From Saccharothrix syringae (GTDB lineage: Bacteria; Actinomycetota; Actinomycetes; Mycobacteriales; Pseudonocardiaceae): a stretch of DNA of 64,000 nt. Made by a program: the position numbers and the translations under genes. The first letter of the stretch is position 1. Each line of letters begins with the position of its first letter. The stretch is from contig NZ_CP034550.1 in NCBI RefSeq assembly GCF_009498035.1, positions 3,782,001 to 3,846,000 on the forward strand, written 5' to 3'. Positions 17,860 through 44,486 of this stretch are shown one piece after another. The notes below the pieces were generated by a model, which did no database searches, was not told the origin of the DNA, and worked only from the letters and a program-made list of their open reading frames with translations.

Positions 17860-18003
17860 CGGCAGTTCGGCCGCGATCGGCCCGGGTTCGCGGACAGGCG
17901 GTCGTGGGCACCGCATTTTTGCGTAGGGGACGCGGCGGGTCGGAGATCGAATAGGCGCTCGGCCGTCCCCGGCCTTCCCGGCACCGAGCGAACGAGGGTC
18001 CTG

Positions 18004-24033: not shown

Positions 24034-24042
24034 CCGCGACGC

Positions 24043-24072
24043 GCGTGGGGCACCGGCGCCGGTGCCCCACGC
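24043..24072 (-). terminator. 30-bp perfect palindrome, terminator of the leftward operon
   Basis: GCGTGGGGCACCGGC is followed directly by its exact reverse complement, a 15-bp arm palindrome without spacer. It begins 5 bp after the stop codon of the condensation-like gene, the last gene of the seven-gene leftward operon. Confidence 0.75.
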
Positions 24073-24077
24073 CCGCG

Positions 24078-25358
24078 TCACGCCAGGGCGGCCCGCACCA
24101 GCTTCTCCTCCACCGCGCCCAGCAACGCCTCGGCGTCGGCGAGCGGTATCCGGGTCGTGTCGAACATGGTCCACAGGCCGGTGCCCGCCGGGTCGTCGTA
24201 CGCGTACACGAACACCGTCGAGTCCCCGTGCGGGGTCCGCCGCACCCAGGCCGCCTCGCCGGCCGGCAGCGGGGCGGCGGGGTCGAGCACCGGGGCGGCC
24301 TCCCGGGCGCCGCGGGTGTCGTTGAACCACAGCGTGAGGTCGAGTGGCGTACCCCGGGCCAGCTCGACCTCGCGGGTGACGGCGAAGCGGGTGCGCGGGT
24401 CGTAGGCGCCGTGGCGCATGGACTGGAGGTTGGCCTTCGCCGCGGCCTGGAACAGCTCGTCCCACGAGCCCGCCGCCACGTCCAGGGTGATCGGCACGAG
24501 CTGCGCGAACGACCCCAGCGCCCCGCGGGTGCCCGGCCGGTTGCGGTTGCGCGCGACGACGCCCAGCGGGCACCGGTCGGTGCCCGCCCGCTCCGCCAGC
24601 ACCGCGCCGAACGCCGCGTAGAGGACCACCGCGGACGTGGTGCGGTGGCGGCTCGCCAGGACCGGGAGGGCCGCCGTCACGCGCTGGGAGGTGAAGGCCG
24701 CGTACCAGAACCGGTCGCCGTCCTGCGCCGGGTGCGGCGGGCCCGGGAACAGGGTCGGCGGCATCGCGGTCAGCTGGCGGTGCCAGTACTCGCGGGCCCG
24801 CGCGTCGACGGCCAGGCCGCGCGGTGAGGACTCGTACGCGGCCTGGTCGAGCGGTTGGACGCCGGGGTCGAGGTCGGCGCCCGGGTCGCCCAGCACGGCG
24901 GCGAAGGTCTCCAGGCCGTACGCGTCGGAGACGATGTGCGAGCACGCGAACGCGATCGCGGTCACCTCGTCGTCCGCCACGACCAGGGCGAAGCGGACGG
25001 GCCACTCGTCGGCCAGGGCGAAGTCCGTGGCCCCCATGGCCTGCAACGCCTCGTCCGCGTCCGCCTGGTCGACCACCCGCACCTCGACCGAACCCGACGG
25101 GTCGACGACCTGGTACCACTCGCCGCCGCGTTCCTCGTACCGGGTCCGCAGCACGTCGTAGGTGCCGAGGAGCCGGCCGATGAAGGCCCGCGCGGACGGG
25201 ACGTCCAGGCGCGCCTTCAGGTCGCACCGGACGGACAGGTTCTCGGCGCTGGCGCCGGGACCGAGCATGGTGAGGATGCGAAGTATGCTGGCCTGACCCC
25301 AGGTCAGCCGGGCGGTGCCGGCCCGGCAACCGCTCACCGAGACCGCGACAGCGGACAT
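24078..25358 (-). CDS. Stand-alone NRPS condensation-like protein
   Basis: 426 residues, one condensation domain without adenylation or carrier partners. The core motif reads SHIVSDAYG at 140-148: the canonical HHxxxDG keeps the second His (His141) and Asp145 but the first His is Ser. Other landmarks are LTWGQASILR near the start and VLRTRYEERGGEWYQVV. Free condensation proteins often move an acyl or aminoacyl group from a carrier protein to an acceptor. It is next to a discrete carrier protein gene, 29 bp upstream, and is last in the operon. The start at 25358 follows GAGGAG with 5-nt spacing. It could also be a docking or COM-like accessory. Confidence 0.82.
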   Translation of the reverse strand: MSAVAVSVSGCRAGTARLTWGQASILRILTMLGPGASAENLSVRCDLKARLDVPSARAFIGRLLGTYDVLRTRYEERGGEWYQVVDPSGSVEVRVVDQADADEALQAMGATDFALADEWPVRFALVVADDEVTAIAFACSHIVSDAYGLETFAAVLGDPGADLDPGVQPLDQAAYESSPRGLAVDARAREYWHRQLTAMPPTLFPGPPHPAQDGDRFWYAAFTSQRVTAALPVLASRHRTTSAVVLYAAFGAVLAERAGTDRCPLGVVARNRNRPGTRGALGSFAQLVPITLDVAAGSWDELFQAAAKANLQSMRHGAYDPRTRFAVTREVELARGTPLDLTLWFNDTRGAREAAPVLDPAAPLPAGEAAWVRRTPHGDSTVFVYAYDDPAGTGLWTMFDTTRIPLADAEALLGAVEEKLVRAALA

Positions 25359-25387
25359 CCGGACTCCTCGTCGACGGGTGGCGGGTT

Positions 25388-25633
25388 TCACCGGGCCACG
25401 AGCGGGGACACCGTGGCGACGATGCGCTCCAGGCTGGCGAAGTTCTGCGGGTCCAGCAGGTCGTCGGGGATGGCGATGCCCAGCTCGTCCTCCAACGCCA
25501 TGAGCAGGCTCACCATCTCGACCGAGGTCATGCCCTGCTCGCGCAGGTCCGCCGCGTCGTCGTCGACCGGCTCCTCCGCCAGCACGTCGGTGACGGCCGC
25601 GACCACGACCGACCGCAGGTCTTGGCGCTCCAC
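25388..25633 (-). CDS. Discrete acyl carrier protein
   Basis: 81 residues, acidic, with the four-helix carrier pattern. The phosphopantetheine site is GMTSVEM with Ser37; the residue before Ser is Thr rather than the usual Asp. ALEDELGIAIPDDLLDP matches helix III of carrier proteins. GTG 25633 is chosen because GGGAGGAAACC lies directly upstream; a GTG 18 nt earlier lacks such a site. It probably carries the side-chain acyl group between the adenylation fusion, the KAS III-like enzyme and the condensation-like protein of the same operon. Confidence 0.88.
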   Translation of the reverse strand: MERQDLRSVVVAAVTDVLAEEPVDDDAADLREQGMTSVEMVSLLMALEDELGIAIPDDLLDPQNFASLERIVATVSPLVAR

Positions 25634-25651
25634 GGTTTCCTCCCTCTCCAC

Positions 25652-25678
25652 GAACTCGAAGAACTCGAAGAACTCGAA
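25652..25678. repeat. Three tandem copies of GAACTCGAA
   Basis: A 9-bp unit repeated three times without spacing in the 56-bp gap between the kinase stop (25690) and the carrier protein start (25633). It sits just upstream of the carrier protein ribosome-binding site. It may be slipped-strand expansion or an mRNA element. Confidence 0.7.
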
Positions 25679-25689
25679 GCTGTCGGCGG

Positions 25690-26595
25690 TCAGGGGCCGG
25701 TCATCATCGACCTGGCGATGTCCCAGGCGATCTCGGCGCGGTCCGGGTAGCCGTGCTCCTGGAACCACATGGCGTCGTCCACGGTGCGCACGAGGCACCA
25801 CTTGTAGGTGGTGTCCGGGTCGAGCGAGGCCAGTTCGGCGAACCGCAGCACGCGCCGCCGGACGGCCGCCCCGGTCGGGTCGTCGCCGCGGATCTCCGCC
25901 CAGCGGTTGCGCAGCAGCGGCACCACCTCGTAGGCGGGGTCGCCGGCCAGCGGCTTCGGGTCGATGGCTGCCCACGCCCGCTCGCCGCGGCCCAGGATGT
26001 TGGCGTAGTGGAAGTCGCCGTGCAGGGTCGACGGCTCGACCGCGCAGGTGGCCAGCTCCTCGCACAGCTCCACGGCGCGGGACAGCATCTCCTCGCTGCA
26101 CGGCCGGTCCAGCCGCTTCCAGTCGTCGAGGAACTCCTTGCCCCAGCGGGCCGCGGTGTCGCCGGCGTTGTTCAGGCCCTCGACCGCGGGCACCCGCAGC
26201 TCCGCGAGGATGACGGCCGCGATGTCCAGTGCCTCGTCGATCGGCACGTCGAGGAGGGTCCGCCGCTCGTCCAGGCGCTCCAGCAGCATCGCGCCGACCC
26301 GCTCCTCGGACCGCAGCAGGGCGACCGCGCCGCGGCCCGCCCAGGCGCGCAGGCCCAGCGGTTCCGCGCGGGTCTCGTCGTCGACCCAGCCCACCTTCAG
26401 CGCGCCGCGCCCCTCCTCGGTGCGCACCCGGAGCACGACGGCGCACATGCCGTAGAGCGGTGCCCCGTCCAACCGGAGCCGCCACGCTTCCAGCAGCTCG
26501 GCGACGGTCGACGGGAGCTGTGCCACCCAGCGGCGGGCCGGTTCCCCCTCTCGCGCGATCATCATGGCGGCGAATTCCTCGGAGACCTCGAACAA
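25690..26595 (-). CDS. APH(6)/streptomycin 6-kinase-family phosphotransferase
   Basis: 301 residues. The kinase catalytic loop is LHGDFHYANIL and the metal-binding segment is AIDPKPLAGDPAYEV, both typical of the APH(6)/hydroxyurea phosphotransferase family rather than generic APH. The family inactivates aminoglycosides by ATP-dependent phosphorylation. The TTG start at 26595 is supported by GGAGAA 6 nt upstream and by the N-terminus LFEVSEEFAAMMIAREGE, which aligns with family starts; Met-11 would remove conserved residues. TTG lies 1 bp after the exporter stop, so translation is coupled. Role inferred: self-protection or phosphorylation of an intermediate. Confidence 0.88.
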   Translation of the reverse strand: MFEVSEEFAAMMIAREGEPARRWVAQLPSTVAELLEAWRLRLDGAPLYGMCAVVLRVRTEEGRGALKVGWVDDETRAEPLGLRAWAGRGAVALLRSEERVGAMLLERLDERRTLLDVPIDEALDIAAVILAELRVPAVEGLNNAGDTAARWGKEFLDDWKRLDRPCSEEMLSRAVELCEELATCAVEPSTLHGDFHYANILGRGERAWAAIDPKPLAGDPAYEVVPLLRNRWAEIRGDDPTGAAVRRRVLRFAELASLDPDTTYKWCLVRTVDDAMWFQEHGYPDRAEIAWDIARSMMTGP

Positions 26596-26596
26596 C

Positions 26597-28441
26597 TCAC
26601 TTCTCCAGACTGGGCAAGGCTTTTTCCGGCAACGGTCGGGGGATGCTAGCGGCTCGGGCGTACGTCGCGGCCTGCATCGCGTAGAGCTGCGCGTACAGGC
26701 CGCCCGAGCGGATCAGGTCGTCGTGGCCGCCCGCCTCGGTGATCCGCCCGTCGGCCACGACCAGGATCAGGTCGGCCATCCGCACGGTGGAGAACCGGTG
26801 GGACACCAGCAGGGTGATGCCACCGGTCGCCGCGGCCACCCGCCTGGCGTTCGCGGCGTACCGCTCGAACAGCCGCTGCTCCGCCTGGGCGTCCAGGGCC
26901 GAGGTGGGCTCGTCCAGGACGAGCAGCAGGGGCTGTTCGCGCATCATCGCCCGGCCGAGGGCGACCTTCTGCCACTGGCCACCCGACAGCTCGGTGCCCT
27001 CGGTCCAGGTCTTGCCCAGCTGGGTGGCCAGGCCGTCGTCGAGCCGGTCCAGCAGGTCGTCCGCGCGGGCCCGGCCGAGCGCGGCCAGCACCGCGGGATC
27101 GTCGTCGACCCTCGGCAGGTCGCCGACGCCGACCGCGTGCCGCGCGGTCAGCTCGAACCGGACGAAGTCCTGGAAGGCCGCGGTGACGCGCCGCCGCCAG
27201 GCCCGCGGCGCGATCCGGGCCAGGTCGACGCCGTCCACCGCGATGGTGCCCTCGGTCGCGTCGTAGAACCGGCAGAGCAGCTTGGCCAGCGTGGTCTTGC
27301 CCGCGCCGTTCTCGCCGACGACCGCGACGACCGACCCGGCGGGCAGTTCGAGGTCGACGCCGGTCAGGACCGGCTCGCGGGTACCGGGGTAGGTGAAGGA
27401 GACCCCGCTCAGCGTGATGCCGCGGCGGATGCGCTCGGGCGGGGCGGCGTCCGCGCCGACCGGCTCCTGCGCGCGGATCAGCTCGCGCAGCCACCGCAGC
27501 CCGGTCATGGTGGCGGACGTGCGCCCGAAGCGCTGCAGCAGCTCCACCCCGGCGCTGACCTGCTGGTGGACCTGGGCGGCCAGGGTGAGGACGAGGACCA
27601 CGTCACCGACGCCGCTGTCCCCGGCCACCGCCTGCCGCAGCACGAGCAGCACCGCCACCACGTACGCCGCGGCGAAGGCGACCTGGCTCGCGGCGATCAG
27701 CGCCGCCGCGGACGCCTCGCCCTTGAGCAGCACCCGCCCGGCCCCGGCCCAGTGCCGCACGTGCCGGCGGCGGATCTCCCCCTGCAGGTTGTGGAGCTGG
27801 AGTTCCTTGACCGGGCCGGCCTGCGTGGAGAGCCGGAACAGGTGCTCGCACAGCCGGGTGTCCTCGGCCGCGGCCCGCTTGGCCCGGTCGACCCGGCGCT
27901 GGGCGAACTGGCCGGCCACCACCGGCGGCACCGCGGCGACCGGGAGCAGCAGCAGCCACGGGCTCAGCGCGGCCAGCAGCACGCTGGTGATCGCCATCGT
28001 GACGACCAGCGACAGCGCGGTCATCAGGCCGATCACGCCCTCGCCGAACTGCGGCAGCTCCCGCCGCAGCAGGGCGATCCGGTCGGCGTGCTCCGCGCGT
28101 TCGTGGTGGGCCAGCCCGGCCGACCCGTTGGTCAGCTCCACCAGCTCGGCTTCGAGCGAGAGGGTCGCCAGCTCGGCCACCTCGGCGTAGGGCACGTAGG
28201 CGAAGTGCTGCAGCACCAGCGCGCCGATGACGCTGACGGCGACCAGCACCCCGGCCGTGAGGGCCGCCGACCCGTCCCGGGCGACGAACGCGTCGACCGC
28301 GCCCCGCAGGGCCAGCGCGACCAGCGGCCACGAGACGCCGGCCAGGACGGTCAGGCCGAGCGCCAGCGCGATCCTGCCCCGGCTGGTGCGCCAGGCCAGC
28401 GCGACCATGGCCACGGCGTTGGTGAACAGCCCGCCCGTCAC
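26597..28441 (-). CDS. ABC exporter half-transporter B
   Basis: 614 residues: six membrane helices (first ~310 residues), then an ATPase domain with Walker A GENGAGKTT, signature LSGGQWQK, Walker B LLLVLDEPTSALD and H-loop LVSHRFS. The GTG start at 28441 overlaps the stop of the previous exporter gene as GTGA, so the two half-transporters are made together and probably form a heterodimer. It is paralogous to the exporter fragment at the left window edge. Likely role: export of the cluster product. Confidence 0.93.
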   Translation of the reverse strand: MTGGLFTNAVAMVALAWRTSRGRIALALGLTVLAGVSWPLVALALRGAVDAFVARDGSAALTAGVLVAVSVIGALVLQHFAYVPYAEVAELATLSLEAELVELTNGSAGLAHHERAEHADRIALLRRELPQFGEGVIGLMTALSLVVTMAITSVLLAALSPWLLLLPVAAVPPVVAGQFAQRRVDRAKRAAAEDTRLCEHLFRLSTQAGPVKELQLHNLQGEIRRRHVRHWAGAGRVLLKGEASAAALIAASQVAFAAAYVVAVLLVLRQAVAGDSGVGDVVLVLTLAAQVHQQVSAGVELLQRFGRTSATMTGLRWLRELIRAQEPVGADAAPPERIRRGITLSGVSFTYPGTREPVLTGVDLELPAGSVVAVVGENGAGKTTLAKLLCRFYDATEGTIAVDGVDLARIAPRAWRRRVTAAFQDFVRFELTARHAVGVGDLPRVDDDPAVLAALGRARADDLLDRLDDGLATQLGKTWTEGTELSGGQWQKVALGRAMMREQPLLLVLDEPTSALDAQAEQRLFERYAANARRVAAATGGITLLVSHRFSTVRMADLILVVADGRITEAGGHDDLIRSGGLYAQLYAMQAATYARAASIPRPLPEKALPSLEK

Positions 28442-30312
28442 CGGGTCCTCCCCGCGTCCTGGGCGAACTGCTCCGCCTGGAGGTGGTACAGCTCGGCGTA
28501 CCGGCCACCGCGGGCCAGCAGCGCCTCGTGGGTGCCGTCCTCGACGACCCGCCCGCCGGCCAGCACGACGATGCGGTCGGCGTGGCGGACGCTGGAGAAC
28601 CGGTGGGAGATCAGCAGGGTGGTGACCCCGCGGGTGCGCTCGGCGAACTCGTCGAAGAACGCCGCCTCGGCGCGCACGTCGAGCGCCGACGTCGGCTCGT
28701 CGAGCAGCAGGACCCTGGCGCCCGCGGCGACCGCGTACAGGGCCCGCGCGATCGCCACCCGCTGCCACTGGCCGCCCGACAGGTCCGCGCCGCCCCGGTA
28801 CTGCCGCGACAGCACCGTGCCGTAACCGCCGGGCAGGCCCGCCACGACCCCGTCGACGTCCGCCCGGCGGGCCGCGGCGACCACGCGGCGGTCCGCGTCG
28901 TCCGCGTCGAGCGCGCCGAAGGCGATGTTGTCGCGGACCGGCAGCTCGTACCGGTTGAAGTCCTGGAAGACCACGGCGAGCTGCCGGCGCCAGGACGCCA
29001 CGTCGAGCTCCCGCACGTCCACCCCGTCCACGAGCACCGCGCCGGACGTGGGTTCGTAGAGCCGGCCCAGCAGCTTGACCAGCGTGGTCTTCCCGGCGCC
29101 GTTGAGGCCCACGAGCGCGGTGCACTCGCCGGCCCGCAGCGTCAGGTCCAGGCCGTCGAGCACGAGCCGGTCGCTCCCGGCGTACCCGAACGACACGTCC
29201 CGGAACCGGATCTCGCGGCGGGGCAGCCCCCGCGCGTCCGCGCCGCCGGGGCTCTCGGTCGCCACCTGCTCGTCGACGTGCCGCTCGAAGTCGGCCAGGG
29301 CCCGCGCGGCCAGCATGCCGAACTGGGTCGCCACGTCCGCCTCCTGGTAGAACTCCCCGAGCAGGGCGGCGCCGACGGTCGCCTGCAACCCCAGCAGCAG
29401 CGCGGTCAGCGACAGGGAGTCGGTCACCGCCGAGCGCAGCATGAGCGCCACGGTCGCGCTCAGCAGCACCAGGCCGATCGCGGTGAACCACACGAACCGG
29501 TGGACGTTGTAGACGCGCCGCGCCCGCCACAGCGGCAGCAGCGCCGCCACCGAGCTGGACCGGTAGCGCTCGACCACCCACCCGGTCAGGCCGAAGACGC
29601 GCAGCTCCTTGGCCGTGGACAGCTCCATGCCCACGTCCCGGAAGTAGTCGCTCTCCCGGCGCAGCGGGCCGATCTCCGGCCACAGCCGGGTCCACATCCG
29701 CAGGCCGCCGCGGTGGCCGTAGCGGAAGACCATGGTGCCCGCGCACACCGCGACCGCCGACCACCACGACACGGCCACGCCGATCACCACGCCGAAGCCG
29801 ACCAGCCGCACGTACCGGGCCACCAGCGCGAGCGTCCCGGCCACCGCGTCACCGGGCGTGTGCTCGCCGCGGAGCAGGGTCTCCGTGGCCAGGTGGAGGT
29901 GCTCCCGGCTGCGCTCGTCCTCCACCGGGCGCAGGGACGCGCTCCGCGACACCACGGCGATGACCTCGGCGTAGAAGTGCCCGTCCACCCGGTGCTTGAC
30001 GACCTGCGCCAGCGCCGTCTGCACCGGGGCCAGCACCTGCTGGGCGACGAAGCAGCCGGAGGCCACCAGGAAGGCGGTGACCAGGGCGTCCCACGCGGCG
30101 CCGCCCGTGCCGGCGGCGACCGCCTCGGGCACGTGGCCGACCAGCCGGGCGGCGGCCACCACGAAGGCGACCGGCAGCACGCCGAGGGCGGTGTTGGTGA
30201 GCAGGCCCAGGGCGAGCACGCCGGCGCCGGCCACGCCCAGCCTGCGCACCAGGAAGAACCGGGGCTCGACCGCTTCCGCCCAGTACCGCCGGGCACGGGA
30301 GTTCTCAGGCAT
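28438..30312 (-). CDS. ABC exporter half-transporter A
   Basis: 624 residues. Membrane region to about 350, then Walker A LVGLNGAGKTT, signature LSGGQWQR, Walker B VLLLDEPTSALD and H-loop LISHRFS. Both nucleotide sites look competent. The ATG at 30312 overlaps the preceding KAS III-like gene by 8 bp, and its own stop overlaps the next exporter gene by 4 bp. The pair resembles drug or lipid exporters; the substrate is inferred to be the cluster product. Confidence 0.93.
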   Translation of the reverse strand: MPENSRARRYWAEAVEPRFFLVRRLGVAGAGVLALGLLTNTALGVLPVAFVVAAARLVGHVPEAVAAGTGGAAWDALVTAFLVASGCFVAQQVLAPVQTALAQVVKHRVDGHFYAEVIAVVSRSASLRPVEDERSREHLHLATETLLRGEHTPGDAVAGTLALVARYVRLVGFGVVIGVAVSWWSAVAVCAGTMVFRYGHRGGLRMWTRLWPEIGPLRRESDYFRDVGMELSTAKELRVFGLTGWVVERYRSSSVAALLPLWRARRVYNVHRFVWFTAIGLVLLSATVALMLRSAVTDSLSLTALLLGLQATVGAALLGEFYQEADVATQFGMLAARALADFERHVDEQVATESPGGADARGLPRREIRFRDVSFGYAGSDRLVLDGLDLTLRAGECTALVGLNGAGKTTLVKLLGRLYEPTSGAVLVDGVDVRELDVASWRRQLAVVFQDFNRYELPVRDNIAFGALDADDADRRVVAAARRADVDGVVAGLPGGYGTVLSRQYRGGADLSGGQWQRVAIARALYAVAAGARVLLLDEPTSALDVRAEAAFFDEFAERTRGVTTLLISHRFSSVRHADRIVVLAGGRVVEDGTHEALLARGGRYAELYHLQAEQFAQDAGRTR

Positions 30313-31225
30313 CGACCTCGACCTCGCCGGGGGTGAGCGCTTCGAGCAGCATGAGCGAGCAGGAGTGCGGGCTGGTGGCGACGACGAGCACGACGTCACC
30401 GGCGGCCCGGCCCGGTTCCCCGAGCCACAGGCCCAGGGTGTGCAGGCCGTCGGCGGCGAAGCAGTGCCCGACGTCGGTGGCGCGCGGTCGGTACAGCGCG
30501 GTGTCCCGGCCGCCCACCGCGGACCGGAACATCTGGGCCACGTTCAGGCCCACGTTGCTCGTGATCACCGAGGTGCAGCCCTCGCGCGCCAGGCCGGCTT
30601 CGGCGAAGAGCCGGTCGCTGAGCGCCCGCAGCGCGGTGACGTGGTGGCGGGCCCGCAGCAGCGGTGGCGCGCCGGGCGGTGGCGAGACGGGCAGCGCCGC
30701 ACCGGCGCGCAGCCGCACCGCGGGGCCGCGGCTGTCCAGGGACACCAGGCAGGACGCGGCGCCGTCGCTCATCACGGTCCGGGCGTCCTGGTTGAGCCGG
30801 GTGCCGCGGTCGACCCGGTCGGCGGTCACCACCAGCACGCCGGCCCGCCCGGTCAGCCGGGACCGCGCCGCGTCCAGCGCCGGCCAGAGGTTGTCGCACC
30901 CCCGCCCGCCGACCACCGTGCCGTCGGCGTCGCCCAGGCCGGTGCCGTCGAGCACCTGCCGGAGCGCCTTCGTCGGGGTCCCGGCGAACGTGTCCGAGGT
31001 GTAGACGGCGGCGGCCGGCGGGGTCGCCGCCGCGGCCAGGGTGCGGGTCGCGCTGCGCGTGGCCAGCTCGACGACGTCCCGGTCGGTGCGCCGGTAGTGG
31101 CGCAGGTCGGCCGCGTGCAGGGCGGTGGCCTCGGCGAGGAGGTCGGGGTCCGCGGCGTCGCGGATCGCCTCCCGGGCGCCGAGGCAGGCGGCGAACCCGG
31201 ACAGGTGCGGCAGTGGCTCGGTCAT
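30305..31225 (-). CDS. KAS III-like acyltransferase with changed active site
   Basis: 306 residues, thiolase fold of the ketoacyl synthase III kind. Cys110 in GGRGCDNLWPALDAA fits the nucleophile position. Where FabH has His (HQANxRI) this protein reads TSNVGLNVAQM (222-232), and the Asn of the GNxSAAS segment is replaced by GHCFAADG (253-260). The Claisen triad Cys-His-Asn is therefore not intact. Such KAS III-like proteins in secondary metabolism often transfer acyl groups to oxygen or nitrogen. It lies 10 bp after the HAD-adenylation-carrier gene and overlaps the exporter gene by 8 bp. Acyl transfer from the operon's carrier protein is the likely role. Confidence 0.8.
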   Translation of the reverse strand: MTEPLPHLSGFAACLGAREAIRDAADPDLLAEATALHAADLRHYRRTDRDVVELATRSATRTLAAAATPPAAAVYTSDTFAGTPTKALRQVLDGTGLGDADGTVVGGRGCDNLWPALDAARSRLTGRAGVLVVTADRVDRGTRLNQDARTVMSDGAASCLVSLDSRGPAVRLRAGAALPVSPPPGAPPLLRARHHVTALRALSDRLFAEAGLAREGCTSVITSNVGLNVAQMFRSAVGGRDTALYRPRATDVGHCFAADGLHTLGLWLGEPGRAAGDVVLVVATSPHSCSLMLLEALTPGEVEVDA

Positions 31226-31235
31226 GAGACCCCGT

Positions 31236-33566: not shown

Positions 33567-33890
33567 CAGGTTCCCCCGAGCGTTGTCGATAAAAGGCGTC
33601 GAGCGCGGACGGTGTGCGCGGCGAATTGCCCGCGCTTTCGGGCGGGCACCTGGGAATGCCCGGGAAGCGGGCACCCCAAAGGCCGACCGCCCGTCGGTGG
33701 TCACAGATCGTTATTTGCGCACGTCAAGGTCGGTGCGGCGCACCCGGCACCCTCACGTCGAAGCTTCCCCCGGCACAGTTCCCCCAGTGCGGATTCGGTT
33801 TTCCGGAGTGGCGGACGGCCGCTCCACCCGTCTGCGGACGGGATTTTCCCCGGCCGGACGCTACCGCCCGCCCCGACCTCCGTCAACGAC

Positions 33891-33912
33891 TAAAAAGTTT
33901 CGAAACTTTTTA
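33891..33912. promoter_or_regulatory. 22-bp perfect palindrome, candidate cluster operator
   Basis: TAAAAAGTTTC followed by its exact reverse complement GAAACTTTTTA, centred in the divergent control region and strikingly AT-rich for this genome. It contains CGAAACTTT, also present in the palindrome before the SGNH-CBM2 gene. It lies 46 bp upstream of a sigma70-like promoter. A dimeric LacI- or TetR-like repressor is a plausible ligand; none is encoded in the cluster. Confidence 0.65.
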
Positions 33913-33957
33913 TGCCGCAGGTCCCGGGCCCGCAGTCAGGCCATCAGAGGACGAATA

Positions 33958-33986
33958 TTGCCTCGGCGTGCGGTCGTGGGTAACGT
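33958..33986 (+). promoter_or_regulatory. Candidate sigma70 promoter for the rightward operon
   Basis: TTGCCT (-35) and TAACGT (-10) separated by exactly 17 bp. If used, the transcript would carry a leader of about 350 nt before the GH3 gene. Confidence 0.4.
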
Positions 33987-34345
33987 GCTGGACATGTCAC
34001 GGCATGGGGGGCCGAACTCGACCGCCGGGATGGCGGTCCGGGGATTGGCAGCATCGGTTCCAAGGTTTTCGGCGAATATCCCGCCCGTTTTTTCCCGATG
34101 AGGGACCGGATCGGCTGACGCCGCTGTCCCGCCCCGCGGTACGCCTTGTCGCACCGGGGCGGAGCGGTCGTCGTCCGGTCTTCCGGACCTCCGATTTCCC
34201 GCGACGACGGGCATTTCCACGCCGTCCGGGTTCCTTCGCGGGACCGATCTTGGTCCCGACCCTTCCACCGCAGGTGCGGTAATGGCGCGCGGGTCGTCCC
34301 GCCGCGCCCACCGCGCCGCGCCCACGACCCGAGGAGGCCCAAGCC

Positions 34346-36787: not shown

Positions 36788-38766
36788 GCGAGCCCCGCAC
36801 CACCGACCGCCGGCGTTCCGCTACCAGGATGGGGCAACGAGCCTTGCACACCTCCTCCGACCAACTCGACCGGGCCGCCCGGCCCGTCTTCCGCGGCACC
36901 GTCTCGCGGGCCCTCGAACCCGCCACGATCGGGCGGCTCCGGGAACTCCTCCGGGACTTCCACGACCGCTACGCCCGGCTGGAGGGCGACGAGACCGCGC
37001 GGTTCCCGTTCCTGTGCCGCTGGGCCTTCCAGGTCCTCACCAGCCGCAACCAGGAGGTCGACCCGCGCACCGGCGCGCTGGTGGACTGCGTGCCGGGCCA
37101 GGGCAACCTCGACACCGGCGACGCGTCCGCACCGCCGTACCCGCCGTTCGTCGACCGGCTCCGCGAGCAGGTCGACGGCGCCACCGACTTCGCCCGGTAC
37201 TTCGGCCCGGAGTGCGTCGACGGGCTCGACGAGGCGGTCCGCGGCTACGTCACCGCGATGGGCTTCCCGCTCGCCGACCACCTGGACGGCCTGAGCACCG
37301 TCGTGGGCAGCGGGACCATCAGCCTCTACAACGCGCTCTGCCAGCACCTGGTCGCCGTCGCCGGGGACGTCGTCCTGCACCCGGAGGTCTCCTACGGCTT
37401 CTTCCTGACCCAGCCGTACCGGGCGGGCGGGGCGGTCGCCGCGGTGCCCATGGCGGCGGACGGCACGGTCGACGTGGCCGCCCTGGACCGCGTCGTCCGG
37501 GAGCGGAACGCGGCGCTGCACCGGGCGTGGCTGCCCGCGCGGGTGGTCCTGGTGCGCCGCACCCTCGACGAGCTGCACGCCCGCGGCGTCATCGGCACGG
37601 CGGCGACCCCCGCCGACGTCGAAGCCCTCACCGAGGGGCTCGACGGGCTGGACAACCTCGCGGCGGGCGACGAGCTGTTCGCGCGCGCCGTCGCCCGCTG
37701 GCCGGAGATCCTGGGCGCCGAGCAGCTGCACCGGCGGGCCGCCCAGGTGCTGCGGCCACCGCGCGTGGTCGGCCACCTGCACATCACCCCGGCCGTCACC
37801 GGCGCGCTGCCCTCGGACGCGCACCTGGCGGAGCTGGGCCGGGTGCTGGGCGAGCACCGGATCACCGCCATCGAGGACATGTCCTACCACTCGATCCGCA
37901 GCTCGCCCCGGGCCCAGGGCACCCTGCTCGAACACCACCGCGACACCTGCGTCCTGTTCGGCGTCTCCAAGCCGTTCGCCCTGGCCAACCCGCGCATCGG
38001 CGTGCTGCTGGTGGCCACCGCGGACGCGGAGGCCGTCACCCGGGCCGTCGAGAGCACCATCGGCTTCGTCTACACGGGTTTCCAGCACGCCCTGGCCGGC
38101 GCGCTGGCCGACGACGCCGACCGCGCCCGGGCCTACCTCGCGGACGAGTCCTGGGACCCGGCGACGGGCTACGACTTCCGGCGGGCGCTGCTGATCGCGA
38201 TGGTCGAGGGCGTCGGGTCCGCGCGGCTCTCGCCCGCCGAGCGCGACGCCGCCCGGACCGCGCTGCGGTCCGAGGTGGACCGGTTCTTCCGGTGGAAGTT
38301 CGACCAGGGCGTCGTGGTGTGCCCGCCGGACCACGACGGGGTCGACGCGCCGGGGGAGGCCGTCGGGGACTACGACGACCTGCCGCCGGCCGTCCTGGAC
38401 TACCACCGGCGGGTCGCCCACGCGTTCACCACCACCGGCCTGCGGCACTGGTTCGCGGTCGAGTTCGAGCCCGAGGCCGGGTTCTTCCTCGTGGTCCACT
38501 GCGACGCCGTGCTGGCCCGCGGCCGGATCGGCCCCATCCCGGTGAGCCGCACCTTCGACGTGTTCGGCGTGCTGGCCCACCTGTTCGGCGTCCGGGTGGT
38601 CCCCGAGGAGATGATGACCGCACCGCGGCCGGTCAACCGCCGCCTCCGGCTGTCCTTCTCACCGCCGGTCGAGAACCTGGTCCGCTGCCTGCTGACCACC
38701 TACCTGGGGCTGACCTGGCTGGAAGCCGGCGCGTCGCCCGGTCCCGAGGACCCCGCCGACCGCTGA
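36784..38766 (+). CDS. Large class I/II PLP-dependent aminotransferase-like enzyme
   Basis: 660 residues, far longer than the ~400 of ordinary class I aminotransferases. The PLP fold is evident: GSGTISLYNAL near 172, VVLHPEVSYGFF, ITAIEDMSYHSI as the PLP-ring Asp strand, and LFGVSKPFALANPRIG with Schiff-base Lys396. There are ~100 extra residues at each end and a helical insert near 225-300. Candidate roles are transamination of a keto intermediate or amino-acid side-chain chemistry. It overlaps the GH3 stop by 4 bp. A second ATG (codon 16) is possible. Confidence 0.78.
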   Translation: MSEPRTTDRRRSATRMGQRALHTSSDQLDRAARPVFRGTVSRALEPATIGRLRELLRDFHDRYARLEGDETARFPFLCRWAFQVLTSRNQEVDPRTGALVDCVPGQGNLDTGDASAPPYPPFVDRLREQVDGATDFARYFGPECVDGLDEAVRGYVTAMGFPLADHLDGLSTVVGSGTISLYNALCQHLVAVAGDVVLHPEVSYGFFLTQPYRAGGAVAAVPMAADGTVDVAALDRVVRERNAALHRAWLPARVVLVRRTLDELHARGVIGTAATPADVEALTEGLDGLDNLAAGDELFARAVARWPEILGAEQLHRRAAQVLRPPRVVGHLHITPAVTGALPSDAHLAELGRVLGEHRITAIEDMSYHSIRSSPRAQGTLLEHHRDTCVLFGVSKPFALANPRIGVLLVATADAEAVTRAVESTIGFVYTGFQHALAGALADDADRARAYLADESWDPATGYDFRRALLIAMVEGVGSARLSPAERDAARTALRSEVDRFFRWKFDQGVVVCPPDHDGVDAPGEAVGDYDDLPPAVLDYHRRVAHAFTTTGLRHWFAVEFEPEAGFFLVVHCDAVLARGRIGPIPVSRTFDVFGVLAHLFGVRVVPEEMMTAPRPVNRRLRLSFSPPVENLVRCLLTTYLGLTWLEAGASPGPEDPADR

Positions 38767-38820
38767 AGCCCGCGCCGCTGCCCACCCGAGCACACCGCGA
38801 AGCAGAACGGAGCGCACGAC

Positions 38821-40800
38821 TTGTACACCCTGGGGTTGAACTGCTGCTTTTCGCCGCCCACCGAGGACATCGTGCCGGGGCTGCCCCAATGGTTCTTCCA
38901 CGACGCCTCCGCCGTCCTGGTGCACGACGGGCACGTCGTCGCGGCCGTCGAGCAGGAACGGCTCAACCGGATCAAGCACACCAACAGGTTCGCCGGCGAC
39001 GCCGCCCGGGCCTGCCTCGCGCAGGCCGGCATCAAGCTCGGGGACGTCGACTCGGTCGCGTTCTTCTTCGACGAGGCGTGGACGGACAAGGAGCTGTTCC
39101 ACCAGTACACCGAGCACCCCGGCGTCGGCATCCGGTGGGCCCGCGACCTCATCACCGCCCGGTTCGCCGAGGCCCTGGAGGAGGACCTGCCCGAGGAGCG
39201 GCTGACCTTCGTCGCCCACCACGACTCGCACGCCTACTCGGCGTACCCGCAGTCCGGCTACGACGACGCCCTGGTCGTCGTCATGGACGGCCGGGGCGAG
39301 GAGGAGTCCAGCTCGGTCTACACCGCGAACGGCGACAAGGTCGAGCTGCTCGCCACCAACACCCCCGAGAACTCCATCGGCCACTGGTACACCGCCGGCA
39401 CCGAGCTGATCGGCTACGGGCTGTTCGACGAGTACAAGGTGATGGGCCTCGCCCCCTACGGCGACCCGGACACCTACGCCGCCGCCCTCGCGCCCCTGTA
39501 CGACCTGCTCCCGGACGGGGACTTCCGCCTGGACTTCACCAAGCTGCGCACCACGATGTTCCGCACCGGGTTCACGCCCCGGCGCAAGGGCGAGCCCTTC
39601 GAGCAGCAGCACAAGGACTTCGCCGCCGCCCTCCAGCAGGTCACCGAGCGGGTCGCCACGCACCTGATCAGCCACTGGCAGCGGGTCACCGGGCACCGGC
39701 GCCTGGCCATCGCCGGCGGCGTCGGCCAGAACTGCACCCTCAACGGCAAGCTCCTGGCGGGCGGCACCTTCGACGACGTGTTCGTGCACCCCGCCGCGCA
39801 CGACGCGGGCGCGGCCCTCGGCGCGGCGCTGAAGGTCCAGGCCGACACCTCCGGCAGGCTCACCCGGCGCCGGGTCCGCGACGTCTACTGGGGCAAGCCG
39901 CTGCCCGCGCCGGACCGGACCGCGGAAACCCTGGCGCGGTGGCGCGGCTTCGTCGAGGTCGAGCGCCTGACCCGGACCGAGCAGCGGGTCGCGGAGCTGC
40001 TGGCCGACGGCAAGGTCGTCGCCTGGGTCCAGGGGCGCTCCGAGTTCGGCCCGCGCGCGCTGGGCAACCGCAGCATCCTGGCCGACCCGCGCCCGGAGGA
40101 GAACCGGCAGCGGGTCAACCTGCTGGTCAAGAAGCGGGAGACCTACCGCCCGTTCGCCCCGTCCGTGCAGGCGGAGAACGTCCGGGAGTACTTCGACATC
40201 CCCGAGGGCGCGACCGTCTCCGACTTCATGGTCTTCACCGTGCCGGTCCGCGAGCACCACCGGGCCGGGCTGGGCGCGGTGACCCACGTCGACGGCACCG
40301 CCCGCGTCCACGCGGTGGACCGCGCGGTCAACGAGCGGTTCTGGCTGCTGCTGGAGGAGTTCGAGGCGCGCACCGGCGTGCCCGTCCTGCTCAACACCTC
40401 GTTCAACAACCACGCCGAACCCATCGTCGACTCCGTCGAGGACGCGGTGCGCACCTTCCTCACCACGGGCCTGGACCACCTCGTGGTCGACGACTTCCTC
40501 GTCTCCAAGCCCACCACCGGCCGGCCGCTGACCGACCTGGTCCCCGTGCTGGAGCCCTACGCGCGGATCGAGCGGCGCGTGGACGCGGCGAAGAACGAGT
40601 CGGCGTGGGTGACCGGCAACTACACCAAGGCCAAGCGCATCCCCGTGGGCGCGCGGACCGCCCTGCTGCTGGAGCGGTTCGACGGCGTGCGGACGCTCGG
40701 CGAGCTGGGCCTGGACGCGGCGGACCCGGCCGACGCGGACGTGCTCGACGAGGTCGAGGCGCTCTGGGGCGACCGGTTCCTGGACCTCCGACCGCGGTGA
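38821..40800 (+). CDS. NodU/CmcH/TobZ-family carbamoyltransferase
   Basis: 659 residues. A Kae1-like N-terminal domain carries the metal-binding AHHDSHAYSAY (His133/His134/His137) and VVMDGRG; AGGVGQNCTLNGKL is another conserved segment. The C-terminal YrdC-like part has EFGPRALGNRSILADPR, KKRETYRPFAPSV and VLLNTSFNNHAEPIV. The family uses carbamoyl phosphate and ATP to carbamoylate hydroxyl groups of antibiotics and sugars. The start is TTG 38821, with GGAGC about 10 nt upstream and the normal family N-terminus YTLGLNCC. Probably a tailoring step on the cluster product. Confidence 0.93.
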   Translation: MYTLGLNCCFSPPTEDIVPGLPQWFFHDASAVLVHDGHVVAAVEQERLNRIKHTNRFAGDAARACLAQAGIKLGDVDSVAFFFDEAWTDKELFHQYTEHPGVGIRWARDLITARFAEALEEDLPEERLTFVAHHDSHAYSAYPQSGYDDALVVVMDGRGEEESSSVYTANGDKVELLATNTPENSIGHWYTAGTELIGYGLFDEYKVMGLAPYGDPDTYAAALAPLYDLLPDGDFRLDFTKLRTTMFRTGFTPRRKGEPFEQQHKDFAAALQQVTERVATHLISHWQRVTGHRRLAIAGGVGQNCTLNGKLLAGGTFDDVFVHPAAHDAGAALGAALKVQADTSGRLTRRRVRDVYWGKPLPAPDRTAETLARWRGFVEVERLTRTEQRVAELLADGKVVAWVQGRSEFGPRALGNRSILADPRPEENRQRVNLLVKKRETYRPFAPSVQAENVREYFDIPEGATVSDFMVFTVPVREHHRAGLGAVTHVDGTARVHAVDRAVNERFWLLLEEFEARTGVPVLLNTSFNNHAEPIVDSVEDAVRTFLTTGLDHLVVDDFLVSKPTTGRPLTDLVPVLEPYARIERRVDAAKNESAWVTGNYTKAKRIPVGARTALLLERFDGVRTLGELGLDAADPADADVLDEVEALWGDRFLDLRPR

Positions 40801-40875
40801 CCCGCCGGGGCACCGCACCAACGACCGCCGTTCCGTTCGGCGACGCAAGTCCGGCGACGCGAGTGAGGACACGAC

Positions 40876-42189
40876 ATGAGTGAACTGGCAGTGCTGGGCG
40901 GCGACCCCTCGATCCGGGTGCCGCGCGACGACCTCTTCGAGTGGCCGATCCTGGGCCGGGAAGAGGAGGAGGCCGTGCTGCGCACGATGCGCAAGCCGAG
41001 CTACCTCGACTTCGAGACGGTACCGGCGTTCGAGAAGGAGCTGACCGACTGGCTCGGCGTCGAGCACGTCATCACCGAGAGCTCCGGGACGCACGCCGTG
41101 CTCGGCGCCATGTTCGCCTGCGGCGTCGGCGCCGGCGACGAGGTCATCGTGCCCACGTCGACGTACTGGGCCACCTGCGTGCAGGCGTTCACCCTGCGCG
41201 CGAGCGTGGTCTTCGCCGACATCGACCCGCTGACCATGAACATCGACCCGGCCGACGTCAAGCGCAAGATCACCGACCGCACCAAGGCCATCGTGGTGGT
41301 GCACCTGCTCGGCTACCCGGTCGACATGGACGCCATCTGCGCGATCGCCCGCCGCCACGGCGTCAAGGTCATCGAGGACGCGTCGCACGCCCACGGCAGC
41401 CTCTACAAGGGGCGCAAGGTCGGCACCCTGGGCGACATCGCCGCGTTCTCGATGTGCGGCAAGCCGCTGTCGATCGGCGAGGGCGGCATGATCGCCACCA
41501 ACGACACCGCGCTGCACGACCGGGCCCTGGCCTGGGGGCACAACTTCCGGTTCCACCCGGGCGAGGTGCGCGACCCGGACCTGCTGCGCTTCGCCGGCCT
41601 GCCGCTGGGCGGCGTCACCTCCCGGATGCACAACCTCAGCGCGGCGATCGGGCGCGAGCAGCTGCGCCGGTTCGACGAGCGCGTCGAGGAGATCGACGCC
41701 GCCATGAACCTGTTCTGGGACCTGCTGGAGGACGTGCCCGGCCTGGTGGCGCACCGCCCGCCGCGCGGCAGCGGCTCGACCATGGGCGGCTGGTACAACC
41801 CGCACGGGGTCTACCAGCCCGAGAAGTTCAACGGCCTGTCGGTCTCCCGGTTCGTCGAGGCGGTGCGCGCCGAGGGCTTCTACGCGGCCACCCGCATCTG
41901 CATCCGCGAGCCGCTGCACACCCACGAGCTGTTCCACAGCGCGGACGTGTACCGCGAGGGCAGGCCGACGAACCGGCACGCCTCGGGCAACCCGCCGCAG
42001 CGGCGGGGCGACCTGCCGGTGGCCGAGTCGGTGAAGGCGTTCACCGTGCCGCCGTTCCGCCGCTACGACAAGGCCGTGATCGAGGAGTACGCGGCGATGT
42101 TCCGCAAGGTCGCCGAGCACCACAAGGAGCTGATCGAGGGCGACCGCGGCGACGGCAGCGTGGTGCTCGACGAGCGGGGCAACGGGTGA
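40876..42189 (+). CDS. DegT/DnrJ/EryC1/StrS-family aminotransferase
   Basis: 437 residues. Fold type I PLP enzyme with GTHAVLGAMFACGVGAGDEV, EDASHAHG and the Lys196 site in FSMCGKPLSIGEGGM. The family transaminates keto-sugars, keto-cyclitols or aminoshikimate intermediates from glutamine or glutamate. It is followed by two dehydrogenases, one a Gfo/Idh/MocA enzyme, the classical partner that makes the ketone. The HAHG segment also occurs in AHBA synthases, but the rest does not argue for that function. Good ribosome-binding site GTGAGGA; stop overlaps the next start as GTGA. Confidence 0.92.
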   Translation: MSELAVLGGDPSIRVPRDDLFEWPILGREEEEAVLRTMRKPSYLDFETVPAFEKELTDWLGVEHVITESSGTHAVLGAMFACGVGAGDEVIVPTSTYWATCVQAFTLRASVVFADIDPLTMNIDPADVKRKITDRTKAIVVVHLLGYPVDMDAICAIARRHGVKVIEDASHAHGSLYKGRKVGTLGDIAAFSMCGKPLSIGEGGMIATNDTALHDRALAWGHNFRFHPGEVRDPDLLRFAGLPLGGVTSRMHNLSAAIGREQLRRFDERVEEIDAAMNLFWDLLEDVPGLVAHRPPRGSGSTMGGWYNPHGVYQPEKFNGLSVSRFVEAVRAEGFYAATRICIREPLHTHELFHSADVYREGRPTNRHASGNPPQRRGDLPVAESVKAFTVPPFRRYDKAVIEEYAAMFRKVAEHHKELIEGDRGDGSVVLDERGNG

Positions 42190-43250
42190 CGCAGGCGTTC
42201 GGGGGTCCGGTGGTCGAGCGGGTGCGGTGGCCCGCCACCACCGCCCTCGACTGGGCCGCCGGGGTCTTCCGCGCGCTGGGCGCGGACGAGGAGACCGCGT
42301 CGGCCGTCGCGCTGGCCCTGGTGGCCGCCGACCTGGCCGGCCACGCCAGCCACGGCGTGCGCCTGGTCGCCACCTACGCCCACCAGGTCTCGGTGGGGGA
42401 GCTGGTCGCGTCCGCCCGCCCCCGGGTGATCGGCCGGGACGGTGGCCACACCTCGCTGAGCGGGGGCTTCGGCCTGGGCGCCGGGACCATGCGGCACGCC
42501 GTGGCGTGCGCCGCCGAGGACGCGCGGCGGCACGGGTTCGCGACCGTGGGCCTCAGCGACCTCGGGCACGTCGGCCGCCTGGGCCTCTACGTCTCCCAGC
42601 TGTCGGCGCAGGGCCTGATCGGCATCCTGACCTGCGGGTCCGCCTTCGTGCCGAGCGAACGGGTGGTGGCGCCCCTGGGCGGTGTCGAGCGCGTGTTCGA
42701 CACCAACCCGTGGGCGTTCGGCTTCCCGGCCGAGGGCGGAGACGTGGTGATCGACATGTCCACGTCGGCCAGGTCGTACAACGCGGTGGCGGCGCTGGCC
42801 GCCTCGGGCGGGAGGCTCCCCGAGGGCGTGGGCCAGGACCGGCACGGCCGGCCGTGCCCGGACCCGGCGGAGGTCCTGCGCTCCGGCAGCCTGCTGCCGG
42901 CGGGCGGCGCGGTCGGCTACGGGCTCGCGCTGGCCACCGCCTGCCTCGCCGCCCTGGGCGACGGCCCGCGGGCCGGGGGCGTCGCCGGCGGGTTCCTGGT
43001 GGCGATCGACGTGGCGCGCCGCCGGCCCGTCGAGCCCTACCGGCGCCACGTGGGCGAGGTCGCGGACGCGCTCCGGGCCTCGGCACCCCGCTCACCCGAC
43101 CTGCCGGTCCGGGTCCCCGGCGGGCGCGGGGCGCTGGTCCGGTCCCCGGCCGAGGTCTCCGGCCTGATCCCCGTGGACGAGTACGTCGTCGAACAACTGG
43201 AGGAAACATGTCAGCGGTTGGGCCTGCCACCGGTGCCGGAGCCCTGTTGA
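42186..43250 (+). CDS. Ldh2-family (malate/lactate dehydrogenase-like) oxidoreductase
   Basis: 354 residues. Characteristic Ldh2 segments: ADLAGHASHGVRLVATY, FGLGAGTMRHAV, VGLSDLGHVGRLGLYVSQ and VFDTNPWAFGFPAEG, with a C-terminal RVPGGRG. The family uses NAD(P)H to interconvert 2-keto and 2-hydroxy (or imino) acids and sugar acids. The GTG start at 42186 overlaps the aminotransferase stop. Some conserved segments are shortened (354 residues is normal length), but the active-site SHG is present. Role within the cluster: oxidation or reduction of a precursor, not specified by sequence. Confidence 0.88.
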   Translation: MTQAFGGPVVERVRWPATTALDWAAGVFRALGADEETASAVALALVAADLAGHASHGVRLVATYAHQVSVGELVASARPRVIGRDGGHTSLSGGFGLGAGTMRHAVACAAEDARRHGFATVGLSDLGHVGRLGLYVSQLSAQGLIGILTCGSAFVPSERVVAPLGGVERVFDTNPWAFGFPAEGGDVVIDMSTSARSYNAVAALAASGGRLPEGVGQDRHGRPCPDPAEVLRSGSLLPAGGAVGYGLALATACLAALGDGPRAGGVAGGFLVAIDVARRRPVEPYRRHVGEVADALRASAPRSPDLPVRVPGGRGALVRSPAEVSGLIPVDEYVVEQLEETCQRLGLPPVPEPC

Positions 43251-44443
43251 GCGGAGTCGACCGGGTCGGCATCGCCTTCCTGGGGTGCGGGTACGCGTCG
43301 GACTTCTACGGGGCCACCCTGCCGAACTACCCGCACCTGCTGGTCAAGGGCGCCTTCGACCCGCGGCGCGAACGCGCCGAGACCTTCGTCGACGAGTACG
43401 GGGGCCGGGTGTACGAGGACTTCGCCGCGGTCCTGGCCGACCCGGGCGTCTCGGTCGTGGTGAACCTGACCCCCGTGACCGACCACTACCGCACGACCAA
43501 GGCGGCGCTCCTCGCGGGCAAGCACGTCTACTCGGAGAAGCCGCTGGCCTCCGACCTGGACGAGGCCCGCGAGCTGGTGGAGCTGGCCGAGGAGCGCGGC
43601 CTGCTGCTGTCCAGCGCGCCGTCGACGGTGTTCAGCCAGTCCGCGCAGACGCTGCTCAAGGCGGTGGAGGACGGCCTGGTGGGCCGCCCCCTGCTGGTGC
43701 ACGCGGCGCTCGACATGGGCGCGCTGGCGTTCATGTCCTACGACCACTGGCGGAGCAAGCGCGGTGTGCCGTGGCCGTACGAGGACGAGGTGCGCAACGG
43801 CTGCGTGATGGAGCACGCCGGCTACCAGCTGAGCTGGCTCGTGGCGATGTTCGGGCCGGTCAAGCGCATGACCGGGCACACCGCGACGCTGCTGTCGCAG
43901 GAGTGGGCCGGGCTGGACCGGGGCGAGGTCGCCCCGGACGTGTCGCTGGGGTTCCTGGAGTTCGCGAGCGGGGCGGTGTGCCGCATCAGCATCGGCTGGG
44001 TGGCGCCCCGGGACCAGTCGCTGGTGGTCATCGGGGACCGGGGCACCCTCTCGGTGGCGGACGTGTGGCAGGCGTCCTGCCCCGTCGTCCTGCGGCGCCG
44101 GGTGCCCACCTCGGGCAAGGACCACGAGTACCTGGGTGAGCCGGTGGAGCTGCCCTTCGTGGTCCCGCCCACGCCGCACCACTACGACGACACGCACGAC
44201 CTGACCGTGGGCGCGGGCGTGTCCGACCTGGCGCTGGCCCTGCTGGAGGGGCGGGAGCCGTTCCTGAGCGCCGCGTACTCCCTGCACGTCCTGGACGTCA
44301 GCCTGCGGCTCGCGTCCGGGCGGGGGGTGTCCGAGGAGGTGCCGATCCGGCACGGGGGCGACGTGAAGCTGTCCCGGGGCCTGCTGGAGCCGGCGGGTGC
44401 GCCGCGGGGGCTGGTGCCCGTGGCCCGGGAGGGCGGGCGTTGA
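43208..44443 (+). CDS. Gfo/Idh/MocA-family dehydrogenase
   Basis: 411 residues. N-terminal Rossmann motif AFLGCGYASDFYG, catalytic-lysine motif YSEKPLA, then VMEHAGYQLSW in the substrate domain, close to the typical inositol/sugar dehydrogenase histidine helix. The family oxidises sugar or cyclitol hydroxyls, providing ketones for DegT aminotransferases. ATG 43208 is preceded by a very strong GGAGGAAAC and overlaps the Ldh2 gene by 43 bp; TTG 43247 is a weaker alternative. Last gene of the rightward operon, ending just before a terminator. Confidence 0.92.
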   Translation: MSAVGPATGAGALLSGVDRVGIAFLGCGYASDFYGATLPNYPHLLVKGAFDPRRERAETFVDEYGGRVYEDFAAVLADPGVSVVVNLTPVTDHYRTTKAALLAGKHVYSEKPLASDLDEARELVELAEERGLLLSSAPSTVFSQSAQTLLKAVEDGLVGRPLLVHAALDMGALAFMSYDHWRSKRGVPWPYEDEVRNGCVMEHAGYQLSWLVAMFGPVKRMTGHTATLLSQEWAGLDRGEVAPDVSLGFLEFASGAVCRISIGWVAPRDQSLVVIGDRGTLSVADVWQASCPVVLRRRVPTSGKDHEYLGEPVELPFVVPPTPHHYDDTHDLTVGAGVSDLALALLEGREPFLSAAYSLHVLDVSLRLASGRGVSEEVPIRHGGDVKLSRGLLEPAGAPRGLVPVAREGGR

Positions 44444-44456
44444 CCGGTGGCCCGCG

Positions 44457-44486
44457 GAAGGGTGTTCAGGTCGGTGGACACCCTTC
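44457..44486. terminator. Bidirectional terminator between cluster and corA
   Basis: GAAGGGTGT and ACACCCTTC form a 9-bp stem with a 12-nt loop in the 55-bp gap between the converging Gfo/Idh and corA genes. It marks the right border of the biosynthetic operon. Confidence 0.7.

Follow-up and report, generated by a model that had tools for sequence, protein, structure and literature searches.

Gene content of the locus

We analyzed a 64,000-nucleotide stretch of Saccharothrix syringae DNA (bases 3,782,001-3,846,000 of a 10.93-Mb single-contig genome), here called the window, in which two divergent blocks of genes at 24078-44443 form a genuine biosynthetic gene cluster. A first-pass annotation had described 13 genes in this region, seven leftward and six rightward, and all 13 reading frames were found to be open and on the strands described. 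Protein families were assigned with Pfam and NCBIfam models at E 1e-3. These models bore out most of the earlier family calls, but the KAS III-like protein matched no Pfam or NCBIfam model. The predicted structure of this protein has a thiolase/KAS III fold, and its homologues are named 3-oxoacyl-ACP synthase in their sources. The features are listed below, with the abbreviations used for acyl carrier protein (ACP), peptidyl carrier protein (PCP), condensation-type protein (C), adenylation domain (A), aminotransferase (AT) and pyridoxal phosphate (PLP).

24040..24075, no strand: hairpin palindrome with 21-nt arms, beyond the end of the leftward block (-47.2 kcal/mol, z -4.6)
24078..25391, minus strand: C, stand-alone condensation-type protein (PF00668, 2.7e-23; alternative start 25358)
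25388..25633, minus strand: discrete ACP (PF00550)
25690..26595, minus strand: APH(6)/hydroxyurea-type kinase (PF04655, 6.3e-34)
26597..28441, minus strand: ABC exporter, permease-ATPase (Pfam/NCBIfam)
28438..30312, minus strand: ABC exporter, permease-ATPase (Pfam/NCBIfam)
30305..31225, minus strand: KAS III-like acyltransferase, triad C110-H254-D259 (predicted structure, homologues)
31236..33566, minus strand: HAD-adenylation-PCP fusion (HAD-A-PCP), 776 aa (PF00702, PF00501, PF13193; longest reading frame from GTG 33704)
33567..34345, no strand: divergent control region, 779 bp
33891..33912, no strand: 22-bp perfect AT-rich palindrome, operator-like
34346..36787, plus strand: GH3 glycosidase (PF00933/PF01915)
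36784..38766, plus strand: AT, long class I/II PLP aminotransferase-like protein (PF00155)
38821..40800, plus strand: O-carbamoyltransferase of GdmN/NovN type (PF02543, PF16861)
40876..42189, plus strand: DegT/StrS PLP aminotransferase (PF01041, 2.1e-79)
42186..43250, plus strand: Ldh2-type dehydrogenase (PF02615, 3.9e-71)
43208..44443, plus strand: Gfo/Idh/MocA dehydrogenase (PF01408, 1.9e-22)
44457..44486, plus strand: hairpin with 12-nt arms, between the rightward block and the convergent corA (z -3.5)

The 779-bp control region common to the two blocks holds, provided that ATG 33566 is the start of the HAD reading frame; the HAD protein of a Micromonospora counterpart described below has the same N-terminal residues as the window protein started there. 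The earlier statement that almost all genes are translationally coupled was too strong: genes overlap at 6 of the 11 internal junctions (the C/ACP overlap is counted only if C starts at GTG 25391), and the distance is 10 nt or less at 8 of the 11. Both hairpins at the ends of the cluster are strong, folding better than every one of 200 shuffles each, but the terminator scan found a T-tract at neither, so that the hairpins described earlier are real and their role as terminators is putative. Carrier serines are present in the window carrier proteins. The PCP of the HAD-A-PCP fusion was not matched by PF00550, and its assignment is based on a DSGASSL stretch common with Micromonospora.

Two separable modules

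When the same gene set was sought in other genomes, as the annotation had proposed, 10 of the 13 window genes were found together, beyond chance, in a stretch of about 27 kb of Micromonospora sp. R77, a member of another family. The Micromonospora region spans about 6,731,108 to 6,759,528. It starts with MFS, ACP, kinase, KAS III-like, A-PCP and HAD genes, these six sharing a strand, continues with genes for a 1049-aa protein (with likeness to A domains by BLAST only), P450 plus MbtH-A-PCP, C, PCP-C, A, a luciferase-like monooxygenase and C, and ends with AT, Gfo/Idh, Ldh2, DegT, a 107-aa protein and the carbamoyltransferase. HAD and A-PCP, fused in the window, are two separate genes there, and the order of A-PCP, KAS III-like, kinase and ACP genes is kept. 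The two ABC exporters and GH3 are outside the shared core and had no counterpart in the 80 kb read around the Micromonospora locus. Past the Micromonospora carbamoyltransferase lie a glycosyltransferase-like gene and then a second carbamoyltransferase-like gene (L031:3763-5436), 34% identical to that of the window; it is near the first and adjoins the nonribosomal peptide synthetase (NRPS) with P450, MbtH-A-PCP and luciferase-like monooxygenase.

In a Streptomyces contig, only five rightward enzymes recurred, with tblastn identities of 60-81% (AT, 60%; carbamoyltransferase, 68%; DegT, 81%; Ldh2, 61%; Gfo/Idh, 73%). The contig is assigned to Streptomyces by the 96% identity of its AT to a Streptomyces protein and by chaplin matches in its genus. 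The whole 46,990-base contig gave no match at 1e-3 to the C, ACP, kinase, KAS III-like, HAD-A-PCP or ABC proteins, and a single weak match to GH3 over 63 residues. The order DegT-Ldh2-Gfo/Idh is identical in all three genomes. Gene borders in the relatives' genomes were taken from a simple GC-frame script, which cut the N-termini of the Streptomyces proteins.

Since Micromonospora has both sets of genes and Streptomyces has the rightward enzymes only, the cluster consists of two separable modules with separate histories. Module I comprises DegT, Ldh2, Gfo/Idh, the long AT and the carbamoyltransferase, and module II comprises HAD-A-PCP, the KAS III-like protein, the kinase, ACP and C. In Micromonospora, HAD (77% identity to the window), A-PCP (75%), KAS III-like (70%), kinase (72%) and ACP (68%) genes form a contiguous run at 68-77%, and the remaining identities are 57% for DegT, 50% for the carbamoyltransferase, 43% for Gfo/Idh, 33% for Ldh2, 31% for AT and 30% for C. 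Judged by these identities, module II is tightly conserved with Micromonospora, and module I more loosely.

It could be argued that the blocks are separate altogether, the rightward one being an operon for an amino sugar and the leftward one an aminoacyl/export operon, with nothing but a promoter region in common. The Streptomyces contig, with five rightward enzymes and no leftward matches, fits this explanation. We consider it quite unlikely, however, because the 10 genes occur together in a different family in another arrangement, and because AT was found in none of the 24 other genomes among the 25 searched in the window's genus, except for one partial match of 32%. As to whether the blocks are independent in most relatives, a condition named in the annotation, the two genomes gave a mixed answer, one carrying both blocks and the other the rightward enzymes only. 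The earlier reading of the cluster as an amino-sugar or aminocyclitol part plus an aminoacyl-transfer part is supported by the co-occurrence in another family, although its details on TobZ (see below), terminators and coupling had to be corrected.

The Streptomyces module I is adjoined by a 2-deoxy-scyllo-inosose (DOI) synthase gene (215 bits, versus 133 for the next enzyme type). Its other neighbors encode an MFS exporter, a nucleotidyltransferase-domain protein, a group-1 glycosyltransferase, a nucleotide-sugar dehydrogenase, an epimerase and another glycosyltransferase-like protein. This gene content suggests an aminoglycoside-type setting, and the Streptomyces relative appears to be a 2-deoxystreptamine-type aminoglycoside cluster. 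Clusters of this type have DegT, a dehydrogenase and a carbamoyltransferase in common with the window cluster; module II is presumably foreign to them. In the window and Micromonospora genomes, no close DOI synthase was found, only cyclase matches of 32-35%, those closest to the Streptomyces DOI synthase in the window genome being 35% and 32%.

Predicted amino acid activation and transfer

The closest solved relative of the A domain was 3wvn (77.4 bits), with 4-coumarate CoA ligase close behind (71.3 bits). According to PMC11253843, 3wvn is VinN, and the VinN residue roles used here are from the same source. Downstream of the TE motif, the loop is as long as in VinN: ESGR aligns with ECKR without a gap, which places an Arg at the R331 position (by our own residue count), and this Arg is kept in all five closest relatives (P0002-P0006). 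For VinN D230, the HMMER alignment shows an Asp shifted by one column, and the next residue is Ala, not Phe (F231); the K330 position is Gly, and no residue could be assigned to S299. With F231 and K330 replaced and the Asp shifted, aspartate or a similar substrate can only be guessed at from the alignment. We also considered the HAD domain as an FkbH-type glyceryl-ACP enzyme. This was rejected: the motif is VFDCFDT, where we would expect DLDNTLW for the FkbH type, and none of the 11 NCBIfam matches listed is FkbH. The DCFDT motif also lacks the second Asp that would be expected in a phosphatase.

The Cys-His-Asp triad of the KAS III-like protein (C110, H254, D259) was present in all 14 rows of a first alignment and then in 30 of 30 rows (26 distinct relatives). 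ChlB3, CerJ and AfcL likewise have a KAS III fold, a Cys-His-Asp triad and a carrier protein nearby. According to two papers (PMC9573744, PMC12186527), the ChlB3 triad is C113/H296/D301, with His to Asp at +5, and an amide bond of AFC-BC11 is formed by a VinN-type A enzyme together with a carrier protein and AfcL, the KAS III-like enzyme with a Cys/His/Asp triad. ChlB3 and CerJ are 20% or less identical to the window protein, and unlike the ChlB3, CerJ and AfcL systems, the window set adds a kinase, the HAD-A fusion, the C protein and module I. Given the conserved triad of the ChlB3/CerJ/AfcL type, the KAS III-like protein most likely transfers an aminoacyl group, by analogy with these enzymes and as judged from its predicted fold. 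The C protein keeps, as SHIVSDA, what we take to be the second His of the HHxxxDG motif.

Carbamoyltransferase, kinase and other enzymes

The carbamoyltransferase had been described as TobZ-type. Its closest solved relatives are instead GdmN (619 bits) and NovN (599 bits), with which it aligns end to end over 658 residues, N and C domains complete; TobZ reached 277 bits against the 619 of GdmN, and the label was dropped. GdmN and NovN belong to geldanamycin and novobiocin, but no ansamycin or aminocoumarin genes were seen among the window flanking genes scanned. The window genome has two further carbamoyltransferase genes at other loci, 43% (7.43 Mb) and 40% (2.54 Mb) identical.

The kinase scored above the PF04655 cut-off (117.9 bits, cut-off 27) and below that of the NCBIfam model APH(6)-I, NF012171 (123.1 bits, cut-off 325). 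It has PF04655 and HGDFHYAN, which we take to be the kinase motif, in common with streptomycin-type APH(6) kinases. We infer that the kinase would phosphorylate a hydroxyl group, most likely as intracellular protection, and that the HAD domain or an outside enzyme may remove this phosphate. Kinase plus exporters is a common self-protection set, and the NCBIfam models that the kinase resembles are those of antibiotic-modifying kinases. Alternatively, kinase and HAD could be biosynthetic, a hydroxy-amino acid bound to ACP being phosphorylated and the phosphate then lost by elimination or hydrolysis, which would tailor the acyl group. In Micromonospora, the kinase gene is flanked by those for the KAS III-like protein and ACP; it is well conserved there (72%) and is missing from the Streptomyces contig, where module II is missing, and HAD is fused to the A domain in the window. 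These points make tailoring possible, yet less probable than the protective role.

In DegT, the presumed PLP Lys is present. The presumed PLP Lys of AT lies in FGVSKPF and did not vary among the 6 sequences aligned; Foldseek matched AT only to general class I aminotransferases, and the quality of its structure model was too low to assign a function. GH3 is near the beta-xylosidase/alpha-L-arabinosidase family (NF052329, 1007.5 of 1050 bits), and no signal peptide was seen by eye.

Distribution among genomes

Protein searches found 21 HAD-A-PCP, at least 5 AT and 10 KAS III-like proteins, the window's own included; the 5 AT protein clusters are a lower bound, as the 31% Micromonospora AT was missed. 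The HAD domain was marked only in the window's own member of the 21, the five closest relatives being A-PCP proteins of 551-564 aa, and there were 6 A-PCP relatives at 60% or more, own included.

Among genomes, HAD-A-PCP at 1e-60 was found only in the window's own of 200 genomes of its family, and the AT profile at 1e-40 only in its own of 296 genomes of its class; at 1e-30, the AT profile was found in 1 of 392 Streptomyces genomes. These long-query searches scored few candidates per genome (HAD-A-PCP in the family, 5 of up to 119 among the matches listed; AT, 4 of up to 59 in the class and 3 of up to 51 in Streptomyces), and their absences are no proof of absence. HAD-A-PCP at 1e-30 occurred in 25 of 160 genomes of the genus of Micromonospora sp. 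R77, at 75-76% in R77 and 34-37% in the other 24. The KAS III-like profile was found in 11 of 249 genomes of the family at 1e-25, own included, and in 3 of 392 Streptomyces genomes at 1e-60.

Contigs of 17,649 and 5,796 bases each turned up for both an A-PCP homologue and a KAS III-like homologue, and since the sizes are equal, the two genes are probably linked there as well. Seven of the more distant KAS III-like genes (about 31-41% local identity), those whose surroundings were read, belong to other clusters that gave no module I matches at 1e-8, and some of these carry A, C, ACP or ABC genes of their own. One locus in the window's family (L057/L058) has a KAS III-like gene (38%) with C-, A-, ACP- and two ABC-like genes by BLAST, together with DUF6271, two PLP decarboxylase-type genes, PhyH and a weak radical SAM match.

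A contig search with the HAD-A-PCP protein returned only a 27% archaeal A domain, and plasmid searches gave no AT and no KAS III-like match. DegT at 1e-50 was found in three plasmid records, two haloarchaeal and one Streptomyces. In the stretches shown, no annotated Ldh2, long AT or carbamoyltransferase gene was near these DegT genes; DegT is paired with a Gfo/Idh gene on the Streptomyces plasmid, and Gfo/Idh genes lie further off in one haloarchaeal stretch. The haloarchaeal megaplasmid DegT relatives are 47-49% identical, with an epimerase gene next after each.

The cluster might also make a known compound, published outside the open literature searched. Its relatives are in well-studied genera, which speaks for this explanation. 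We consider it unlikely, since the relatives are few (the AT, KAS III-like and 60% A-PCP counts above) and no cluster with this gene set was found in that literature, of which titles and abstracts were covered and most subscription papers lie outside. The accessible part of the Saccharothrix espanaensis genome paper mentions a putative aminocyclitol cluster, with no detail.

Bluensomycin- and pactamycin-type aminocyclitols have a carbamoyl group or a KAS III-like acyl transfer on the aminocyclitol. By gene content these systems are set apart, as no amidinotransferase or radical SAM gene is among the 13 cluster genes.

Proposed pathway

The cluster probably makes a small carbamoylated amino compound with an amino acid attached. 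The pathway below starts from the computed gene set, its co-occurrence, the predicted fold and the catalytic residues; all substrates and the order of the steps are what we infer. In module I, Gfo/Idh would oxidize an alcohol of a cyclitol or sugar, and DegT would aminate the resulting ketone. Ldh2 and the long AT may carry out a second oxidation and amination, perhaps of a 2-hydroxy acid to a 2-amino acid, and the GdmN/NovN-type enzyme would add an O-carbamoyl group. In module II, A-PCP would load an amino acid, which the KAS III-like acyltransferase would take onto its Cys and hand to the discrete ACP. Joining of the amino acid to an amino group of what module I makes would fall to the stand-alone C protein, or to the KAS III-like enzyme in the manner of AfcL. 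The two ABC proteins would export the product. For this full mechanism, with module I supplying the amino component and module II delivering the acyl component, we consider the chances evenly balanced.

A broader and more tentative proposal, which we would sooner doubt than accept, is that the cluster represents a new antibiotic class, with an aminocyclitol or sugar acid that is both aminoacylated and O-carbamoylated. This class would be characterized by VinN-like A-HAD loading, a KAS III-like shuttle between two carriers, and a kinase acting on the carrier-bound or finished acyl group. Its module I would be common with the 2-deoxystreptamine-type pathway and combined with other assembly lines, including the multi-gene NRPS in Micromonospora. 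Useful antibiotics are found among the aminoglycoside-like compounds that carry aminoacyl and carbamoyl groups. The presence of module I beside different assembly lines in three actinomycete genera, together with a KAS III-like acyltransferase that shuttles between carrier proteins, would point to undiscovered compounds and offer a handle for finding more of them.

Control region palindrome and flanking genes

Around the palindrome at 33891-33912, the control region is GC-rich. One further exact copy of the 16-bp palindrome core is present in the genome, upstream of a WrbA-type quinone oxidoreductase gene, and one more place, flanked by genes for a phenylalanine-hydroxylase-like protein and an amino acid exporter, has two overlapping core sites with 1-2 mismatches (the other palindrome places are at contig positions 4112992 and 4151245-4151269). 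A reversed control pattern of the core gave zero genome matches, and the palindrome was not found in the relatives' loci compared. Since none of the 13 cluster genes is a regulator, the cluster is probably regulated by a gene located elsewhere, and the rare palindrome at three genome places may mark a regulon. A xylan operator controlling GH3 was also considered and dropped, as the other exact copy precedes the WrbA-type gene.

The flanking genes scanned for families appear not to belong to the cluster. On the left they encode a cupin protein, a CbrC-like protein and a Raf-kinase-inhibitor-like protein, and on the right CorA, two proteins without a Pfam match, an ATP-binding protein and a roadblock protein. 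Farther right are a fused glycosyltransferase at 53.4 kb (53452-56154, group 1 plus family 2 domains) and an FAD enzyme at 63 kb. At 14227-20907, an nSTAND1-WD40 protein gene is followed by that of an FxSxx-COOH system NB-ARC/TPR protein; the two resemble a signalling or defence pair.

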